A program made the translations under genes and the position numbers. A stretch of 64,000 nt of DNA from Thermogutta terrifontis (GTDB lineage: Bacteria > Planctomycetota > Planctomycetia > Pirellulales > Thermoguttaceae). Under the pieces are notes generated by a model. The model ran no database searches. It saw only the letters and a program-made list of their open reading frames with translations, and was not told the origin of the DNA. Positions 27,383-61,691 of this stretch are shown in pieces (position 1 is the stretch's first letter; each line of letters starts with the position of its first letter). Location: positions 744,001 through 808,000 of the forward strand of contig NZ_CP018477.1 of NCBI RefSeq assembly GCF_002277955.1, written 5' to 3'.

Positions 27383-27470
27383 GGTAGGGGCAATTCATGA
27401 ATTGCCCCTACCAGGGCCAGTCACAGCACACGGCCGAGTGGCACCGGGCACGACAGGCGTGCCCCTCCGA
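27383..27470. repeat. 88-bp direct repeat, left copy
   Basis: This block begins with the 30-bp palindrome, continues through AGGGCCAGTCACAGCACACG and ends with a GGGCACGACAGGCGTGCCC hairpin and CTCCGA. It matches 30228-30315 at 86 of 88 positions in the same orientation, the differences being one base in the palindrome and one in the hairpin loop. The two copies flank the kinase gene. Confidence 0.9.
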
Positions 27471-27510
27471 CCTTTTTCCGGAGGGACGTGCTTGTCAGGT
27501 CCGCCGTTTG

Positions 27511-27673
27511 ACGTTGGATCATCCATTCGCTTTCGGCGGGGACTGAAGTCCCGCGCCGAAAGCGGGGCTAAAGCCCCGCACTCCATGGAGTGCGGCGATT
27601 CATCGCCGCTTTTTCGTGAAGGCTTTAGCCTTCACAACCTTGGCGTCGGTCCGGATGGAACGACGATAACCGG
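27511..27673. repeat. 163-bp multi-palindrome module, copy A
   Basis: A run of consecutive inverted repeats: TGGATCATCCA; GCGGGGACTGAAGTCCCGC; GCGGGGCTAAAGCCCCGC; ACTCCATGGAGT; GCGGCGATTCATCGCCGC; TGAAGGCTTTAGCCTTCA. Most have an unpaired two-base centre (GA, AA, TC, TT). Nearly identical modules lie at 27881 and 30006. Confidence 0.9.
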
Positions 27674-27880
27674 TCGCGGTGGAATTCGACCCTCCAATCC
27701 ACACAATGGAGGTCCGCACAATTGGAGGGACCCGCTTGTCAGGTCCGTTTTTTTCGAGCGTTGATAATCCATTTCGTTGCGCGGGCACGACAAGCGTGCC
27801 CCTCCGACCTTCGGAGGGACGTGCTTGTCAGGTCCGTTTTTTTGGAGGGACGTGCTTGTCACGTCCGTAATACAGCGCTC

Positions 27881-28039
27881 GATCATCCATTGTCTTTCCG
27901 CGGGGACTGAAGTCCCACGCCGAAAGCGGGGCTAAAGCCCCGCACTCCATATGGAGTGCGGCGATTCATCGCCGCTTTTTAGTGAAGGCTTTAGCCTTCA
28001 CAACCTTGGCGTCGGCCCGGATGGAACGACGATAACCGG
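27881..28039. repeat. 163-bp multi-palindrome module, copy B
   Basis: Same order of palindromes as copy A. It differs by a two-base insertion that keeps symmetry (ACTCCATATGGAGT in place of ACTCCATGGAGT) and by an A in AGTCCCACGC. It is followed directly by the 20-bp CAATTCATGAATTG palindrome. Confidence 0.9.
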
Positions 28040-28464
28040 TCGGGGCAATTCATGAATTGCCCGGACAACGTCGGAGGGACCTGCCTGTCAGGTCCGATGA
28101 ACACCGGTTGACAACTCATTCCCTTTCACCGGGCACGACAGGCGTGCCCCTCCGAACGATTTCTCGGAGGGACCCGCCTGTCAGGTCCGTTTTTTCTCGG
28201 AGGGACGTGCTTGTCACGTCCGCTTATTCGATGTTGGATAATCCATTCCCACTCCCCGGGCACGACAAGCGTGCCCATCCGGGCCCCCTCCCCAGAGATA
28301 TAACCACTTTTTCTCCACCAACCGGAACTCGAACGTCCAGACGGGCTTGTTTCTTCGGGCCGTTTAAAATGGCGAACTGTTTGCGGCGCCTGCTGGGCAA
28401 TTACAATGGGGAAAAGCATCCCTGATTAGCGGTGTTGTTTTGTTGTGGCCGGAAGGGGTCTAAA

Positions 28465-29724
28465 ATGGACGACGTTGTACGGGCATTTTTAGAAAATGAG
28501 CAGAAGCTCCGGCTTGTTAGGCGGCTGGGAGTGGGCGGATTCGGCGAGGTTTGGGACGCCGAATCTGACAGTGGAGTTCGCTCCGCCATCAAGGTTTCGC
28601 ATCAGACGATCGACAATACCAATCCTGCCGTTCAAAAAGAGCTGCAAAACCTCAAGCTCATCCGGGCCCTGACGGGCCATCCCCACATCGTCAGTCTTCT
28701 CGACTACTGGGTGGTCTCCGGATATTTGGTCACCCGGTGGGAACTTGCGACCGACGGAACACTCCTCGACATGCTGGAAAGATACCGCCAGGACGGGCAA
28801 CCGGGCATTCCTCTCAAACAACTTATCAAGTGGATTTATGAGGCGGCAGATGGCCTGGACTTTCTTCACGAGAAGGGGATTTATCACCGCGACATCAAGC
28901 CGCAGAACCTGCTCCTTTTCCACGGGCATGTGAAGCTGGGAGATTTGGGGTTGGCGAAATTGGTGGGGGCCAGCACGGCGTCGCACACAGGTTCCGGAAC
29001 GTTCGGTTATTTGCCGCCCGAGGCCTGGGAGGAGCACCGGCTGACGCGAAGCGTGGACCTTTACTCCCTGGCGGCAACGTACATCAAGCTGCGGACGGGG
29101 CAGGAACCGTTTGGTAGGAACCCCGTGGAGATTTTCGAACGGCAGCGGACGGGCCGGCCCGTGCTGGACGGGCTCCTACCGGAAGAGGCAGACTTGGTGC
29201 GGCAAGCGCTTGCTCCCCGGCCGGAAGACCGGCCACGGGACGGCGCGGCGGCCTGGGTGCGGAGCTTATACAGGGCGCTACGGGGCGAAGGCCGATCAGG
29301 TGCGGGCGTGCCTTCCACGGGGCCTGCTGCGGGTGCCAGCCAGGCCACGTTTTCGGCATCGCCTCCGGGCCTGCGGCCCGTGGTAGCACAGCCAGGGGTG
29401 GGGGTGGGCGAATGGGGACATTCTGCTCCCGCCGCTCGTCCAGCATCTCCCCCTGCGGGTTTTGCTCCCAAAGGCGACAAGGCCGGAGGGGCCTTACATC
29501 GGGCTAAGGACCGTACCGAAGAGGAGATGGACCCGGCCATCACCGGGGCCATCGTCGGGGCCATCTTTTGGGCCATCCGCGGGGCCATGAGCAATGGCAT
29601 CGGCGGGGCCATCGCCGGGGCCATCGTCGGGGCCATCTTTGGGGCCATCGGCGGGGCCATCTTTGGGGCCATCGGCGAGTCCATCGGCGGGTCCAGTATG
29701 AAGTGGAAAAAGCGGGCCAAGTAA
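28465..29724 (+). CDS. Ser/Thr protein kinase with glycine-zipper C-terminus
   Basis: A Hanks-type kinase of 419 residues. The ATP loop LGVGGFGEVW is near residue 22, the lysine in SAIKV near 43, HRDIKPQN at 141, DLG (in place of DFG) at 160, and GTFGYLPPEAW and DLYSLAATYIKLRTG follow; the catalytic residues are intact. After about residue 280 comes a Pro/Ala/Gly-rich linker. Residues 360-404 are a run of tetrapeptides such as GAIV, GAIF and GAIG, giving glycine every fourth residue, a GxxxG zipper able to pack in a membrane, then KWKKRAK. No WD40, PASTA or other sensor domain is visible. ATG 28465 is chosen; a start at 28432 would add eleven residues. The gene sits between two repeat arrays. 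Confidence 0.9.
   Translation: MDDVVRAFLENEQKLRLVRRLGVGGFGEVWDAESDSGVRSAIKVSHQTIDNTNPAVQKELQNLKLIRALTGHPHIVSLLDYWVVSGYLVTRWELATDGTLLDMLERYRQDGQPGIPLKQLIKWIYEAADGLDFLHEKGIYHRDIKPQNLLLFHGHVKLGDLGLAKLVGASTASHTGSGTFGYLPPEAWEEHRLTRSVDLYSLAATYIKLRTGQEPFGRNPVEIFERQRTGRPVLDGLLPEEADLVRQALAPRPEDRPRDGAAAWVRSLYRALRGEGRSGAGVPSTGPAAGASQATFSASPPGLRPVVAQPGVGVGEWGHSAPAARPASPPAGFAPKGDKAGGALHRAKDRTEEEMDPAITGAIVGAIFWAIRGAMSNGIGGAIAGAIVGAIFGAIGGAIFGAIGESIGGSSMKWKKRAK
29527..29695 (+). repeat. Tandem 12-bp repeat inside the kinase gene
   Basis: Units close to GGGGCCATCGTC or GGGGCCATCTTT repeat about eleven times with some decay, always keeping the frame so that each unit encodes Gly-Ala-Ile-X. The period of four codons makes the glycine zipper of the kinase tail. 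Confidence 0.85.
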
Positions 29725-30005
29725 CCGAAAATACAGCGCCCTGTTTGTAAGCATGGGTGCGAAGGACCACCCCTTCGCTGCCTGATCAATGCTTGCCCGA
29801 CCAAAAGTCGTTGGAGGCATTGCCCCAAGCCCATCGCGTGAAAATGCTGGCATACGTGGGGCGGAAGCTTCCGCAAGGGACCCGCGACGGGGCGGACCTG
29901 GTGCGGCAGGCGGTCAAGACTTGTCCTGCGTTTTGCCGTGGGCACGACAGGCGTGTCCCTACGAACGATTTCTCGGAGGGACGTGCTTGTCACGTCCGCC
30001 GTTTG

Positions 30006-30170
30006 ACGTTGGATGGTCCATTGCCTTTCGGCGGGGACTGAAGTCCCGCGCCGAAAGCGGGGCTAAAGCCCCGCACTCCATATGGAGTGCGGCGATTCAT
30101 CGCCGCTTTTTCGTGAAGGCTTTAGCCTTCACAACCTTGGCGTCGCTCCGGATGGAACGACGATAACCGG
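30006..30170. repeat. 165-bp multi-palindrome module, copy C
   Basis: Same chain of palindromes as copies A and B, with ACTCCATATGGAGT as in B and GAAGTCCCGCGCCG as in A. It is in the same orientation as the other two, on the other side of the kinase gene. Confidence 0.9.
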
Positions 30171-30227
30171 AAGGGGCGATTCATGAATCGCCCGGACAAC
30201 ACATGGACCATGGCCAAACCAGATTCC

Positions 30228-30315
30228 GGTAGGGACAATTCATGAATTGCCCCTACCAGGGCCAGTCACAGCACACGGCCGAGTGGCACCGGGCACGACA
30301 AGCGTGCCCCTCCGA
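30228..30315. repeat. 88-bp direct repeat, right copy
   Basis: Matches 27383-27470 in the same orientation. One base change breaks a pair in the 30-bp palindrome (A opposite C at 30235/30250), and the hairpin loop reads ACAAG rather than ACAGG. Confidence 0.9.
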
Positions 30316-54886: not shown

Positions 54887-55874
54887 TGGACAAACAACAC
54901 CCTACAACAAAAAACGCTGCAGCAAGCGGAGGCGAGGGAGGTAAAATCCGATCGGCGAGCAACGCCGCTTACGAAGAAGCAGCGTCTCGGCTATCAAGCC
55001 CTTTTGGTTTGATTGAGAAATCCACGATCCGCATTACCGCTCCGGGTGACCGTCCCCCGCCCCATGCGAGGGATACCGCGGTCACCCATTAATGGACACA
55101 GTATAACACCATTCCCGCCACCCCACAATTGGAACGCCGGCGGAGGGAAGATTTGGCGGGACACCTTCCAGGGCGTCCGAGGAACCTCGGAGGGGCACGC
55201 TCGTCGTGCCCATTGAAGGGGAATAGGCCGTCAACCGTTGTTCATCGGACCTGACAGGCAGGTCCCTCCGGGAAATCCTTCGGAGGGGCACGCTTGTCGT
55301 GCCCGGTGAATAACACTGGATAATCCAACATCGCGAAGCGGACGTGACAAGCACGTCCCTCCGAGAGGTGGCTCCACAGGCAGGTCCCTCCGACGTTGTA
55401 GGGGCGATTCATGAATTGCCCCAACCGAAACGCGAGTGAATTGGAATGGATTATCCAAGGTTGAAAAGCGGACGTGACAAGCGGTCCCTCCATGGCAAGG
55501 TTCGGAGGGGCGGGTTCCATTCCGGCCGATCCACCCTACCAAGCCGTCCACCGTCTGCCCTGGCCAGCGCTCCCGATGACCGTGCAGAAACGGCAAGAAA
55601 AAAGTAAACTTGCATATCGGGCAGGGAGGTGCACCGGAATCCTGGACTACCGGGCACGAAGCATTTTTTTAGCGCCGTGCCGAACAAACTCCCATCGGAT
55701 AAACTGGGCGGATTCGCGTCCCCCTTCGGAGAAAGTGGGGTTGCCCGAGGCCGATGCGGCAGGAATCCGTGCCGGAGGAATCCGTCAAAGGAAAGTTGAG
55801 AATTTACGATCGTGGCCACACTTCCACTCGTGGCTCATGTCATTGATCAAGTTTGACCAGCACACCCCCTCGGC
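54887..55874. other. Divergent region between rpsA and dxr, with repeats
   Basis: 988 bases that hold the promoters of rpsA and dxr. The middle (55193-55487) is array VI. Reading frames such as that at 55231-55596 come from the repeats. No gene, tRNA or riboswitch is recognised. dxr has no strong ribosome site near its start. Confidence 0.55.
55193..55487. repeat. Palindromic repeat array VI
   Basis: Four clean hairpins: 55193 (GGGCACG/CGTGCCC, loop CTCGT), 55247 (GGACCTG/CAGGTCC, loop ACAGG), 55286 (GGGCACG/CGTGCCC, loop CTTGT) and 55340 (GGACGTG/CACGTCC, loop ACAAG). A truncated unit is at 55470. A 22-bp palindrome at 55401-55422 shows a G facing a T in its stem. Spacers read as reverse complements of those in array I (TGGATAATCCAACATCGCG, TGGATTATCCAAGG). 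Confidence 0.88.
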
Positions 55875-57032
55875 ATGACCGATTCGAGTCAGGGAATAGC
55901 AGTCCTCGGATCCACAGGCAGTATTGGTCGAAACGCGTTGGAGGTCATCGCTGCCTCGGAAGGCAGATTGCGCGCCGTAGTTTTGGTGGCGCGATCGAAT
56001 ACGCAGCTTCTGGAACGGCAAGCCCACGAGCATCGGCCGACGCTTGTCGTGGTGACTGATCCAGAAGCGGCGAGGCGGCACGGAGTTTGGAATCTACCGC
56101 CAGAGACGGAACTCCGCGTCGGGGAGGAGGCCGTGCTGGAGGCTGTCAGCTCGCCGACAGTGGATCGGGTCCTCTCCGCGTATGTGGGAATAGCCGGATT
56201 GCGAGCGACGTGGAAGGCCGTGGAGGCCGGTAAAACCGTGGCCCTCGCTAATAAGGAAAGTCTCGTCGTGGCAGGGCCGCTTATCACGCAGTTGGCGCAG
56301 CAAACGGGTGCCCAAATTCTCCCCGTGGACAGCGAGCACTCCGCCGTCTTCCAGGCGCTGCGGAGCGGTCAGCCGAAGGAGGTTCGGCGCATCATTTTGA
56401 CGGCAAGTGGCGGGCCGTTTCGCACGAAAAAAAAGGAAGAGCTTGCCTCCGTCACGGTGGAAGAAGCTCTGGCGCACCCCACCTGGAAGATGGGCCGCAA
56501 GATTACGGTGGACTCTGCCACCTTGATGAACAAGGCCCTGGAGATCATCGAGGCCCGCTGGCTGTTTGGTGTGACCGCTGAGCAGATCGCGGTGGTGATC
56601 CATCCCCAGTCGATTGTCCATTCCATGGTGGAATTTGTGGATGGTTCGGTGATTGCCCAGCTCAGTCCGCCGGACATGCGGCTTCCCATTCAATATGCGC
56701 TGTATTATCCGGAGCGCTGTCCTGGAATTGCGCGAAAAATCGATTGGACGCAGGTTCTCGATCTTCGCTTCGAGCCGCCGGATCCGGAGCGTTTTCCTGC
56801 TATTCGGCTGGGGCTCGAAGCGGCTCGCCGCGGGGGGACGGCGGGGGCTGTCCTCAATGCAGCCAACGAGGCGGCGGTAGAATGCTTTTTACAGGGGCGG
56901 CTTCGGTTCGACCAGATTGTTCCGGCCTGCGAGGCAGTGCTGGAATCCCATCCGTTTGATCCTGAACCGACCTTGGAACGCATTTTTGAGTTGGATTCCT
57001 GGGCCCGAAGGGAGATTGCACATTGGACCTGA
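55875..57032 (+). CDS. dxr: 1-deoxy-D-xylulose 5-phosphate reductoisomerase
   Basis: Dxr converts DXP to MEP with NADPH, the committed step of the MEP pathway. The 385-residue protein begins MTDSSQGIAVLGSTGSIGRNALEVI (NADPH loop). Also visible are ALANKESLVVAGPL, the active-site region PVDSEHSAVFQAL, ASGGPFR and HPTWKMGRKITVDSATLMNKALEIIEARWLF with its metal and substrate residues, followed by EQIAVVIHPQSIVHSMVEFVDGS. Family length is normal. It overlaps the rseP start by ten bases. Confidence 0.96.
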   Translation: MTDSSQGIAVLGSTGSIGRNALEVIAASEGRLRAVVLVARSNTQLLERQAHEHRPTLVVVTDPEAARRHGVWNLPPETELRVGEEAVLEAVSSPTVDRVLSAYVGIAGLRATWKAVEAGKTVALANKESLVVAGPLITQLAQQTGAQILPVDSEHSAVFQALRSGQPKEVRRIILTASGGPFRTKKKEELASVTVEEALAHPTWKMGRKITVDSATLMNKALEIIEARWLFGVTAEQIAVVIHPQSIVHSMVEFVDGSVIAQLSPPDMRLPIQYALYYPERCPGIARKIDWTQVLDLRFEPPDPERFPAIRLGLEAARRGGTAGAVLNAANEAAVECFLQGRLRFDQIVPACEAVLESHPFDPEPTLERIFELDSWARREIAHWT

Positions 57033-59275
57033 CCAGCTTCATACTCGTGGCTTTTTTAGCAGGATCGGCCTGGCTCTACGTGCTGATGGTCGTGGTGGGG
57101 CTGGGACTGATCATCTTTGTTCACGAACTCGGCCATTTTCTGGTGGCCAAGGCGTGCGGGGTAAAATGCGAGAAGTTTTATCTCGGATTCGATATCTTTG
57201 GGCTACGGATTGCGCGGTTCCGCTGGGGTGAAACCGAATATGGGATTGGTATTCTTCCCCTGGGCGGATACGTGAAAATGCTCGGGCAGGAGGACAATCC
57301 GGCGCGGCTGCGTCAGGAACTCGAGCGTGCCAGGTCGGCGGGGCTGGCCCCGGACGCTGTCATCAGCGAAGAGGGAGTAACTGTGGCGGCAGCTCAGGCG
57401 GCCCTCTATGATCCCCGCAGTTACCTCGCCAAAAGTGTTCCCCAGCGAATGGCGATCATCTCCGCCGGGGTGATCATGAATCTCATCTTCGCGTTCATCG
57501 TGGCTGTCATTGCCTTTGCTATCGGAGTGGATGAGTTCCCCTGCACGGTGGGACAGGTTGCGCCGGGGGAAGGTGCATGGCGAGCGGGGATTCAGCCGGG
57601 CGACAGAATCATCGCCATCAACGGTAGGCAAACAATGCGATTTCAGGACATCCAGCAGACAATCCCCCTCACACGCCGTGGAGCAGAAGTCGCTCTTACC
57701 GTGGAGCGGCTCGGCAGATCCGCGGCCGACCAACTCGAAAAAAGCGTTTTTGACGTGCGGATCGTGCCCGACCGCATTCGCGTGATCCCCACGATTGGTG
57801 TGTCCAACGCATTCACCACAGAGCTGGCAGATCCTCCCTGTTTTCCAGGAAGTCCCGCTGCCGCGCTCGGCGACCAACTGAAACCGGGATGGAAGATCGT
57901 CCGCGTTAACGATCGCCCCATCGCCGATTATGCCGAGTTGCATCGCCAGTGGGCGCTGACCTGGGGCCAGTCTGTGGAGATCACTCTCGAATCTCCAGAG
58001 GAACCACACACGCAGGGGAATGAGGCGAAAAAAGTCACGCTGCGTCTCGATCCTTCCAGCGTGCGGGATTTGGGGCTTGTCCTGGAATATGGGCGGATTG
58101 TGGCCGTCCAGGCCGACTCGCCGGCAGCACAGGCTGGCATTCAACCGGGGGATGAACTCGTTGCGGTGGAATGTCCCGCCGACATCGTTTGGGACGGCGA
58201 TCTTCTCGAGCTTCCCTATGTCCTGCAGAAGACGCTTCGGGAGCGGCAAGGTGCGAATGTTCCAGTTGTCCTCTCCATTCGTCGCTCCGCACAGGAAGAG
58301 CCAGCCTTCGCTGAGGACGATAGGGCATTGAAAGATTCCCCCCACACAGCACCGCCGGGAGAGAATCACAGCGTGACGGTCCCGGCTCGGTTGGCCAGCT
58401 CTTTCGCCGAACTATACACCCCCGATAGCCCGTGGGAAATCCCGCAGCTTGGAATCGCCGTTGAGATCCTTCCGCGGGTGCGAGCAGTTCGGCCAAAATC
58501 ACCCGCGGCCGAGGCCGATATCCAGCCTGGCGACGTGATTGTGGCGGCCAAAACCATCTCGCCCCGGGCAAACGTTCAGAATGCCGACGCGCCTGCAGTG
58601 GAATCGGAACTCGAGGTCCGGTTCGACGTTCAGCGTGGCAACAACAAGGCCACCTGGGCCACGTTTTTCCATGAATTGCAGAAATTTCCGCTTGGGACAC
58701 AGGTGGAACTCGTACTCCGCCGGGCAAAAGGGAGTGAGAAATCTCACGGTGATGCGTCTGATCCGGAAGCGGCACCTCAGGAGTTGACTGTTCGCCTGGA
58801 GCCTCATGTGCGAAACGACTGGTACTTTCCCGATCGGCAGCTCCTCTTTCAGCCGATGACGTTTCACATGCGGGCTGGCGGCTTTTTCCAGGCCATCGAA
58901 ATGGGAGCCAGTGAAACGTGGACCTCGGTGACGCTGATCTATCGCATCCTCAATCGGTTGACTCGGGGAGATGTGTCACCGCGGGCACTTGTCGGGCCGA
59001 TTGGCCTAGTGCAGACGGCCTATCGCGTGGCGTCTCAGGGCACGGGGCGATTCCTCCTCTTCCTCACCCTTCTGAGTGCCAACCTGGCGGTCGTCAATTT
59101 CCTGCCCATTCCTGTGCTGGACGGGGGCCATATGGTCTTTCTGCTGTACGAGGCCATCCGCGGCAAGCCGCCCAGCGAAGCGGTTTATGTCGGGCTTTCC
59201 TACCTCGGGCTGGCCATCATTCTGGGTATCATGCTCTGGGTTTTTGGACTCGATTTGGGACTCATTGCCCGTTGA
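57023..59275 (+). CDS. rseP: Site-2 intramembrane protease with four PDZ-like segments
   Basis: RseP-type zinc protease that cuts membrane-anchored anti-sigma factors and signal peptide remnants. HELGHFLVAKACG (HExxH near residue 34) and the C-terminal FLPIPVLDGGHMVF (near residue 698) form the active site, with four hydrophobic segments. The middle is long: PDZ-like stretches are at TVGQVAPGEGAWRAGIQPGDRI, FPGSPAAALGDQLKPGWKIVRVN, VQADSPAAQAGIQPGDELV and VRPKSPAAEADIQPGDVIV. Total length 750 residues against about 450 in E. coli. The TTG at 57023 overlaps the dxr stop and has GGGAG upstream; a GTG at 57047 is an alternative. Confidence 0.9.
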   Translation: MDLTSFILVAFLAGSAWLYVLMVVVGLGLIIFVHELGHFLVAKACGVKCEKFYLGFDIFGLRIARFRWGETEYGIGILPLGGYVKMLGQEDNPARLRQELERARSAGLAPDAVISEEGVTVAAAQAALYDPRSYLAKSVPQRMAIISAGVIMNLIFAFIVAVIAFAIGVDEFPCTVGQVAPGEGAWRAGIQPGDRIIAINGRQTMRFQDIQQTIPLTRRGAEVALTVERLGRSAADQLEKSVFDVRIVPDRIRVIPTIGVSNAFTTELADPPCFPGSPAAALGDQLKPGWKIVRVNDRPIADYAELHRQWALTWGQSVEITLESPEEPHTQGNEAKKVTLRLDPSSVRDLGLVLEYGRIVAVQADSPAAQAGIQPGDELVAVECPADIVWDGDLLELPYVLQKTLRERQGANVPVVLSIRRSAQEEPAFAEDDRALKDSPHTAPPGENHSVTVPARLASSFAELYTPDSPWEIPQLGIAVEILPRVRAVRPKSPAAEADIQPGDVIVAAKTISPRANVQNADAPAVESELEVRFDVQRGNNKATWATFFHELQKFPLGTQVELVLRRAKGSEKSHGDASDPEAAPQELTVRLEPHVRNDWYFPDRQLLFQPMTFHMRAGGFFQAIEMGASETWTSVTLIYRILNRLTRGDVSPRALVGPIGLVQTAYRVASQGTGRFLLFLTLLSANLAVVNFLPIPVLDGGHMVFLLYEAIRGKPPSEAVYVGLSYLGLAIILGIMLWVFGLDLGLIAR

Positions 59276-59592: not shown

Positions 59593-60561
59593 ATGCTGAC
59601 TCACCTGAAGATTGAGCGGTTTAAGTCCATCCGGTATTTGGAGCTGGAGTGCCGGCGAGTGAATCTTTTCATCGGCGGGCCGAATACCGGTAAATCCAAT
59701 ATCTTAGAAGCCCTGGGGCTGCTCTCCTGGTGCGGAAGCAATAGGACGAACCTTTCCGGTTTCGTGCGAGCTTCGCACCCCCAGCATCTCTTTTTTGATT
59801 TTATTACGGACGAAGCCGTGCGGATTGAATTTGGAGGAAAGCCTTCTGGGGTGCTTTCGTTGCGATTGGAAAATCAACAGTTCTGCTTCTTCTACGGTTC
59901 TCAAAATATCGGCCGCATTTCTGGGTTGGGTTCCGAAAGCCTAAGCGCGGAGAAGAGCAAACGTGACGAACTCTCCTTGATTCGCAAGTATCGGTTTCGA
60001 CTTTCAGATTCAGCCATGACTGTACCTGGTCCTCTCTTTGTTCCAGACGGAGAAAATTTATTTGCCGTCATTTCTGGTTCGAAGGTTCTGCGAGAATGGG
60101 TGGCCGAGTTGTACCGTCCCTACGGCTTTTCGCTCGTCGTTAAGCCGCTGGAGGGCAGGTTCGAGTTGCAGAAACAGCAGAACGGAATGGCTATCAGTTT
60201 TCCCTTTGTTTCCACCTCCGAGACCCTTCAGCGGATTGTCTTTTATTACGTCGCGATGGCTTCCAATCGCGATGCGGTTTTGGTGTTTGAGGAGCCGGAG
60301 GCCCATGCCTTTCCGTACTACACCAAATATCTCGGCGAGCAGATTGCGGCCGACTCGTCCAACCAATATTTCATCGCGACCCACAATCCGTATCTCCTCA
60401 CGGCGGTACTGGAAAAAGCCAATCGCAACGAAGTCGCGGTTTTCGCTGTCCAGTACAAGGACTATGAAACCAGGGCGACGGCTTTGACCGATGAGCAAAT
60501 CAGTCGGCTTCTGGATGCGGATCCTTTTCTCGGATTGGACGCTGTGCTGCAGGCTGACTGA
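59593..60561 (+). CDS. AAA15/OLD-like ATPase
   Basis: A 322-residue P-loop ATPase of the AAA15/RecF-like type. MLTHLKIERFKSIRYLELECRRVNLFIGGPNTGKSN gives the beta-strand, arginine and Walker A pattern of SMC/OLD ATPases. STSETLQRIVFYYVAM replaces the signature, Walker B is VLVFEEPEAHAFP and the H-loop is YFIATHNPYLL. OLD family proteins also carry a Toprim nuclease, but here the chain stops after the ATPase part and a Toprim-like partner follows with a one-base overlap. ATG 59593 follows AGAGAGG. Such pairs are often defence systems, which is inference here. Confidence 0.85.
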   Translation: MLTHLKIERFKSIRYLELECRRVNLFIGGPNTGKSNILEALGLLSWCGSNRTNLSGFVRASHPQHLFFDFITDEAVRIEFGGKPSGVLSLRLENQQFCFFYGSQNIGRISGLGSESLSAEKSKRDELSLIRKYRFRLSDSAMTVPGPLFVPDGENLFAVISGSKVLREWVAELYRPYGFSLVVKPLEGRFELQKQQNGMAISFPFVSTSETLQRIVFYYVAMASNRDAVLVFEEPEAHAFPYYTKYLGEQIAADSSNQYFIATHNPYLLTAVLEKANRNEVAVFAVQYKDYETRATALTDEQISRLLDADPFLGLDAVLQAD

Positions 60562-61028
60562 TGCTCTACGTCGAGTGCTTTGCGGATGAGAAGCTGGTCC
60601 ACAGCCTGGGTGTGCGACGGCGACACGTTCGCCACGCTAAATGTAAAGGCGAGGTCCTCAACAAACTGCGACAGCAACCAGCCGGGATTGGACTGGTCGA
60701 TCAGGATCCTCATGCAGCCCAGCCTTCCGAACTGAACAATTACCGAGAGATAAAGCGCGGCGGAGGTTTGATCCTGCTTGAACACAGGGACGGATCAAAC
60801 CGCCGGGTCATCATCCTGTGCCCGAGACTGGAAGAATGGCTTTACCAGCGAGCGGCGACTCGCGGTATTAATCCACAAAAATACGGGTTGCCCGGTTCAG
60901 CCCAGGAACTGAAAAAGATCCCTCATTACGAAACAAAGCAGCAGTTTCCCGAGTTCCTCCAACAGCTTCGCCAATTGGATGAGGAAATGGCTCTTCTTGA
61001 GGACTGGCTGCGGGAATTCACGGTGTGA
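60561..61028 (+). CDS. Toprim-like partner of the ATPase, unknown function
   Basis: A 155-residue protein translated from ATG 60561, which shares its A with the ATPase stop (TGATG), so translation is coupled. The start MLYVECFADEKLVHSLG supplies a conserved-looking Glu, and GIGLVDQDPHAAQPSEL supplies a D-x-D, a layout like the Toprim nuclease fold. RRVIILCPRLEEWLY and the C-terminal helical segment LRQLDEEMALLEDWLREF complete it. I do not recognise a named family. Function as a nuclease is inferred only from the E/DxD pattern and the partner. Confidence 0.6.
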   Translation: MLYVECFADEKLVHSLGVRRRHVRHAKCKGEVLNKLRQQPAGIGLVDQDPHAAQPSELNNYREIKRGGGLILLEHRDGSNRRVIILCPRLEEWLYQRAATRGINPQKYGLPGSAQELKKIPHYETKQQFPEFLQQLRQLDEEMALLEDWLREFTV

Positions 61029-61691
61029 GCAGCGTTTCCTTTTGGGGACCACTTCAAACCGTTGTCACCCCTGCAAAGGCAAGCCCGGCGACAGGAGAGT
61101 CTTCATTCCCAAATTGTGCGGGGGAGTTGAGGCCGATCGATCCTCCGCTGGCAGGAAACTGTTCCGGAATAGATGATCTATCCGATCTTCTCGGGCACGA
61201 CAAGCGTGCCCCTCCGAAACATCCCTCGGAGGGACCTGCTCGTCAGGTCCGTCATTTTCGGAGGGACGTGCTTGTCACGTCGGCCCTCTTGGAGGGACCT
61301 GCTTGTCAGGTCCGCAGTTTGACATTGGATCATCCATTCCCTTTCCTCGGGCACGACGAGCGTGCCCCTCCGAAGGACATCGCGGAAGAACCGGCTTGTT
61401 GGAGCCACATTCCAACGTTGGGAGAATCCCGAACGTTGGGAGAATCCATTGCGTCGACCGGGCTCCCATGCTCGGTTCAGTTGCCGGGTAAACGGCAGGG
61501 GCAATTCATGAATTGCCCCTACCAACACATTGCCCCGGTGGCATCGCACAGGTCTTTCCAAAGGTGCGGAGTGCGGAGGGTGCGGAGATTCGGGGTGCGA
61601 ATGGGGATCCTCTGCCCGTCTTGCGTAGGGTGTCGAAATCGTTCACGATGACGATTTACCCTGCCACGTCATCCATGGAATTGACATTGCT
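61029..61691. other. Gap before cdsA, mostly repeat array VII
   Basis: 663 bases without a supported gene. Bases 61193-61519 are the seventh repeat array. The last 150 bases before cdsA have no feature I can name; the start of cdsA is preceded only by GACATTGCT and lacks a clear ribosome site. Confidence 0.55.
61193..61519. repeat. Palindromic repeat array VII
   Basis: Hairpins start at 61193 (GGGCACG/CGTGCCC, loop ACAAG), 61232 (GGACCTG/CAGGTCC, loop CTCGT), 61264 (GGACGTG, loop CTTGT, one terminal mismatch), 61295 (GGACCTG/CAGGTCC, loop CTTGT) and 61349 (GGGCACG/CGTGCCC, loop ACGAG). A perfect 22-bp palindrome centred on TTCATGAA is at 61498-61519. A tandem AACGTTGGGAGAATCC occurs twice at 61414-61447. 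The spacer at 61324 contains TTGGATCATCCATTCCCTTTC. Confidence 0.88.

Follow-up and report, generated by a model that had tools for sequence, protein, structure and literature searches.

A conserved gene pair of an OLD-type ATPase and a small Toprim-like partner in Thermogutta terrifontis, archaea and a pleolipovirus, with a possible role in defence or inter-virus competition

Defence systems built from an ATPase and a Toprim nuclease are known mainly from bacteria. In PARIS, also termed 'class 4 OLD', an AAA_15/AAA_21 ATPase gene (AriA) lies beside a separate gene for a Toprim-type nuclease (AriB), and the system is found on mobile elements in both bacteria and archaea (PMC9122126), although class 4, the PARIS-like split pairs, has also been reported as restricted to bacteria (PMC12796447). 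AriB is kept inactive by a hexamer of AriA, is set free when a phage protein acts as the trigger, and then cuts tRNA (PMC12409363). PARIS loci are detected by an ATPase with at least 32 bits against AAA_15 or at least 27 bits against AAA_21, together with an adjacent DUF4435 gene (PF14491) of at least 27 bits (PMC9122126). In single-chain OLD proteins, by contrast, an N-terminal ABC ATPase is fused to a C-terminal Toprim domain. The old gene of P2 is carried by a virus and acts against lambda (PMC9122126). The metal-site residues of Bp OLD are E400, E404, D455, D457 and E508 (with T506), of which E508 sits in a helix beyond the Toprim core; the same arrangement is found in RNase M5, with E96 as its late glutamate (PMC6755086).

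The pair described here was found in a 64,000-nucleotide stretch of DNA (the window) from Thermogutta terrifontis, the genome of which is a single contig of 4.81 Mb. It lies between the housekeeping genes rseP and cdsA, and its features, in window coordinates, are as follows.

55875-57032, dxr, upstream of the pair
57023-59275, rseP, upstream of the pair
59593-60561, + strand, ATPase gene, 322 aa, AAA_15/AAA_21, OLD/RecF/SMC-type ABC
59674-59700, + strand, Walker A loop GGPNTGKSN, ATPase residues 28-36; G28, N31, G33, K34 and N36 invariant in 13 homologues
60217-60234, + strand, SETLQR stretch, ATPase residues 209-214; T211 and R214 invariant in 13 homologues
60286-60306, + strand, Walker B FEEPEAH (VFEEPEAH), ATPase residues 232-238; E234, P235 and E236 invariant in 13 homologues
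60376-60390, + strand, H-loop ATHNP, ATPase residues 262-266; T263 and H264 invariant in 13 homologues
60559-60563, + strand, TGATG junction, ATPase stop TGA (60559-60561) and partner ATG (60561-60563) with one base in common
60561-61028, + strand, partner gene, 155 aa, orphan family with a Toprim-like acid set; 31 homologues; AlphaFold pLDDT 95.5
60573-60587, + strand, E5 and D9 of the partner, after the first strand; E5 in 31/31, D9 in 30/31; Toprim-like Glu and +4 acid
60699-60707, + strand, D47-x-D49 of the partner (DxD motif), at the end of the third strand (41-47 in the model); D47 in 29/31, D49 in 30/31
60831-60833, + strand, E91 of the partner, in P-x-L-E-x-W, the third acid, at a helix start (90-100 in the model); 31/31
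61692, start of cdsA, downstream of the pair

The ATPase scores 46.1 bits against AAA_15 (cut-off 32.1) and 44.6 bits against AAA_21 (cut-off 27) in Pfam, values that lie above the PARIS thresholds for the ATPase. The first-pass annotation had recognised an OLD/AAA15-like ATPase from its motifs, and in an alignment of 13 homologues Walker A, Walker B and the H-loop are indeed largely invariant. The SETLQR stretch, by its position, is probably the ABC signature motif. The chain ends at 322 aa and has no C-terminal nuclease domain, so that the fusion seen in single-chain OLD proteins is absent here. PADLOC returned many low, unspecific matches for the ATPase (NsnB, HEC-01A, AriA, GajA), and its score against AriA was no better than those against the NsnB or HEC-01A models.

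ATPase and partner form a conserved unit. Their coordinates, lengths and one-base overlap were correct as first annotated, and the two genes stand in the same order at more than 25 independent loci, which span archaea, the Geoglobus virus GahPV1 and, among bacteria, Planctomycetota, Verrucomicrobiota, Bacteroidota and Chloroflexi. Wherever the locus is intact, the ATPase directly precedes the partner, usually with an overlap of 1 or 4 bases, and the genes are separate at all loci. When the ATPase was searched separately from the partner in 295 archaeal genomes, it was found in 18 and the partner in 21, with both in 17 (Fisher p = 6e-23); the eighteenth ATPase genome (G1123) keeps only a 3' remnant of the partner. 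Over 27 pairs of proteins, identity between ATPases correlates with identity between partners (r = 0.85), a value that is descriptive only, because species comparisons are not independent. There is one copy per genome, except that in G981 a single broken copy lies in two pieces. From planctomycetes to archaea the partner keeps its reading frame, at 26-56% identity, and is therefore a true gene.

The distribution of the pair is patchy. Two of 60 relatives have the partner, and a genome from a different genus of the same family (G033) has it at another locus. Within its own phylum the partner was found in 3 of 392 genomes, T. terrifontis included, within the phylum of a Pedosphaera MAG (G456) in 4 of 388, and within an archaeal phylum, that of a Methanoperedenaceae MAG, in 21 of 295. 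Eleven loci came from a collection of genome contigs (Verrucomicrobiota, Bacteroidota, Chloroflexi and Methanoperedenaceae), one of them being the same G033 copy. Geoglobus ahangari pleomorphic virus 1 (GahPV1), a pleolipovirus, carries the pair as gp15-gp16 at 36% identity. Scans of viral contigs found no relative. The GahPV1 pair (L011:5020-7174) is flanked on both sides by similar winged-helix regulator genes, the first of which, of HxlR type, overlaps the ATPase start; an HxlR-type regulator gene also precedes the pair at one further locus (L070). In a midpoint-rooted FastTree tree of the concatenated proteins archaea and bacteria are mixed, with a Chloroflexi copy among archaea and an archaeal copy among planctomycetes. 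In the window, the two genes have a G+C content of 52% and 54.5%, against 59-60% in the flanks. We favour the view that the pair, which is patchily spread across domains, is horizontally mobile.

Several copies look decayed. About 8 of 22 archaeal copies, all from MAGs, look broken, and some of these may be assembly errors. The ATPase is frameshifted or interrupted in three genomes (G1132, G1098, G925), the partner has a stop in G1044 and is deleted in G1123, and remnants are found in G1054 and G1089. Such broken and remnant copies suggest a dispensable gene with fast turnover. In G981 (L086:741-2227) a reverse-transcriptase-like gene occupies the place of the ATPase and is, by sequence resemblance, probably that of a group II intron, and the partner has an internal deletion.

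At its own locus the pair is not a fixed component. Two congeners (G002, G003) have dxr-rseP without the pair, which removes the concern that it belongs to this locus in all relatives; in both, rseP and cdsA are on different contigs and cdsA is in another context. In the closest genome (G001, dxr 98% identical) cdsA was not found and the contig ends inside rseP, and absence of the pair there therefore cannot be judged. In the segment 55875-62612 of the window, as in the congeners, dxr and rseP adjoin; cdsA follows the pair here and lies elsewhere in G002 and G003, which indicates that gene order has been rearranged within the genus. The repeat array thought to follow the pair proved to be something else: GGGCACGACRAGCGTGCCCCTCCGA is a dispersed repeat with 9 copies in the window (27446-30315, 55187-55304 and 61193-61373) against 0 expected by chance. 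A CRISPR or RNA element after the pair was rejected, as the repeats are dispersed through the window and Rfam gave no match. The same repeat also occurs beside dxr in G001 (L136). No sigma-70-like promoter site was found for the pair, a result that is uninformative as to whether it has its own promoter.

Elsewhere, most loci are in housekeeping surroundings that differ between lineages, including trpA, hypE, acnA, mutS, accC, nicotinate phosphoribosyltransferase and hpnH-hpnJ. Some lineages keep the pair at one site (trpA, acnA, hpnH-hpnJ), and this could indicate a resident role. In two Verrucomicrobiota (L020:5633-9917, by NCBIfam names, and L024:1396-5783, by sequence resemblance) the pair sits almost without gaps between the hopanoid genes hpnH and hpnJ. 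Neighbours of defence type are SIR2_2 at L018 and HsdR with YgjP at L067 and, by sequence resemblance, at L069; further such neighbours are a DNA methylase (L079), a DUF4365 protein (L083), a nucleotidyltransferase (L158) and a Mrr-STAND protein (L157). The locus with the deleted partner (L156:7191-15711, in G1123) holds the ATPase together with two SIR2_2 genes, a nucleotidyltransferase-HEPN pair and a truncated DUF499-like gene. The pair thus occurs at different loci and, at several of them, beside defence-type genes, as would be looked for in the defence module that the first-pass annotation had proposed.

Among 31 partner sequences exactly five charged positions are at least 90% conserved, and all are acidic: E5, D9, D47, D49 and E91. 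The glutamate and DxD pointed out at the outset in this 155-residue protein are among them (E5 in 31/31, D47 in 29/31, D49 in 30/31). Their counterparts in Bp OLD are E400, E404, D455, D457 and E508, and at the level of sequence the two sets agree in order, +4 spacing, DxD and a late glutamate at a helix start. An invariant glutamate after strand 1 and a DxD after strand 3, the hallmarks of the Toprim superfamily, are both present (strands 2-4 and 41-47 in the model). So too, again by sequence comparison, are the marks of the OLD/RNase M5/DnaG subgroup, an acid four residues after the glutamate (D9, 30/31) and an acid in a later helix (E91, 31/31). AlphaFold models of the partner (pLDDT 95.5) and of a second homologue (97.2) both have the predicted order strand-E-helix-strand-helix-strand-DxD, with E5 after strand 1 and D47 closing strand 3, an order that fits Toprim.

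The partner matched no family model and no known defence model: searches of Pfam, NCBIfam, PADLOC and PHROGs gave nothing above chance for it, even when 15-29 homologues were included and E values up to 10 admitted, a profile search of the PDB gave no match, and PF14491 (DUF4435) was unmatched by the partner and 14 homologues at E up to 10. Foldseek comparison of both models with the PDB, run without a positive control, gave no match with an E value of 0.001 or less, nor was a Toprim protein recognised among the 50 listed, and the first model had no Toprim relative among viral structures (BFVD). An hhalign comparison of the partner with seven DUF4435 sequences brought the Glu and the DxD regions into register, with a score of 27.3 (pairwise E = 0.003, not database-corrected), which is above but close to the maximum of 24.6 among 150 unrelated single proteins; comparisons of single sequences of the partner and DUF4435 scored nil. 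Column-shuffled controls shown were below 18 apart from one aberrant value of 136, which probably arose from the shuffling of gap columns. By these profiles, similarity to the AriB-type DUF4435 appears marginal. The OLD-like Toprim (PF20469) aligned to the partner in hhalign over only 14 columns outside the motif region and gave no Pfam hit. A literal split OLD was rejected on this ground, and the description of the pair as an OLD protein split in two was accordingly dropped, the partner matching no known defence model either.

We regard the partner as probably a metal nuclease of Toprim type or derivation. The same small protein could instead be a new alpha/beta metal-binding fold with acids after strands 1 and 3, like CheY-like receivers, in which case the pair could make or sense a ligand. 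The absence of a Toprim match in Foldseek for models of such high pLDDT speaks for a new fold, as do the weak alignments to CheY (E about 1) and the OLD-like Toprim alignment that misses the motif region. We nevertheless consider it rather unlikely, given five conserved acids in the order of OLD and RNase M5, with +4 spacing and the last acid in a helix, and the in-register alignment with DUF4435. For AriB, the link to Toprim at first consisted of no more than a weak HHpred match (E = 0.02; PMC9122126), and later work established it as a Toprim nuclease (PMC12409363).

Two other readings concern the role of the pair. A cellular ATPase-nuclease that serves DNA repair, replication or control of the cell cycle would agree with the many copies among trpA, hypE, mutS, accC, acnA and hpnH-hpnJ. 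Such a role has been proposed for Cran1, an OLD ATPase of archaea that seems to be essential and to have no antiviral function (PMC12796447). The pair, however, is rare and patchy, absent from two congeners, virus-borne and often broken; such patchiness and breakage are not expected of an essential repair factor, and we think this role improbable. Slightly more doubtful still is a toxin-antitoxin pair for plasmid or virus stability, with the partner as toxin and the ATPase as antidote, to which the tight two-gene overlap, the viral copy, the Pfam annotation of AAA_21 as a putative AbiEii-type toxin ATPase and the nucleotidyltransferase-HEPN pair near one archaeal copy lend some weight. In PARIS, the closest known design, deleting either gene is non-toxic, which excludes a toxin-antitoxin system there (PMC9122126), while the genome that keeps the ATPase without an intact partner fits either reading.

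On balance we lean towards a mobile two-gene system of an ATPase and a Toprim-like nuclease on the PARIS/OLD plan, most likely serving host defence or competition between viruses or mobile elements. PARIS is the nearest in layout, with an AAA_15/AAA_21 ATPase gene beside a separate nuclease gene, and it likewise occurs on mobile elements in bacteria and archaea (PMC9122126). The partner differs in having no DUF4435 match and in its 155 aa, roughly half as long as the DUF4435 open frames of 284-338 aa compared here (L087, L088, L099, L100); the pair is not filed as PARIS because the adjacent DUF4435 is missing. OLD classes 1-3 and 5 (P2 Old, GajA of Gabija, retron effectors, Cran1) share the ATPase superfamily and a matching acid set of a glutamate, a +4 acid, DxD and a glutamate in a later helix (PMC6755086), but here each locus found encodes the ATPase and the nuclease-like domain separately, and similarity to PF20469 is lacking in the motif region. 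Unlike these OLD systems, the window locus has no GajB helicase, reverse transcriptase or membrane partner. RNase M5 is also a small Toprim protein, with an active site that resembles that of OLD in E96 and further acids (PMC6755086), a likeness based on published acids; it differs in maturing ribosomal RNA and in lacking an ATPase partner. Similarity to Mad3-Mad4 of MADS is too weak for membership: MAD3, the best NCBIfam match of the ATPase, reached 34.5 bits, far under its cut-off of 420, mad4 was touched weakly by one of 29 partners (E = 0.047), and no methyltransferase or other MADS gene lies beside the window pair. The pair may thus be a distinct split ATPase and Toprim-like system that works like PARIS and OLD systems. 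We found no description of it in the literature searched, the coverage of which excludes most subscription journals.

By analogy with these systems, the ATPase would oligomerise with ATP, keep its small partner inactive and sense a signal related to infection. On triggering, the partner would become an active two-metal nuclease through E5, D9, D47, D49 and E91 and cut nucleic acid, either tRNA as AriB does or DNA as OLD does, so that infection would stop. Complex formation, sensing, nuclease activity and a defence role are all drawn from this comparison. Carriage by a virus recalls P2 old, which makes inter-virus competition as plausible as host defence.

Defence-gene detectors that use the libraries searched here would miss the pair, because the partner has no model. 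More tentatively, we suggest an immune or inter-virus system of two genes common to bacteria, archaea and a pleolipovirus, with an effector nuclease of about 150 aa that is regulated by an OLD-type ATPase and has either a fold so far absent from the PDB or a strongly remodelled Toprim fold. The pair would offer one of the smallest ATPase-controlled effectors, and a probably thermophilic version would suit structural work. With 21 of 295 genomes in one archaeal phylum against about 1% in two bacterial phyla, and with carriage by a pleolipovirus, it would extend the split ATPase-nuclease design across domains.
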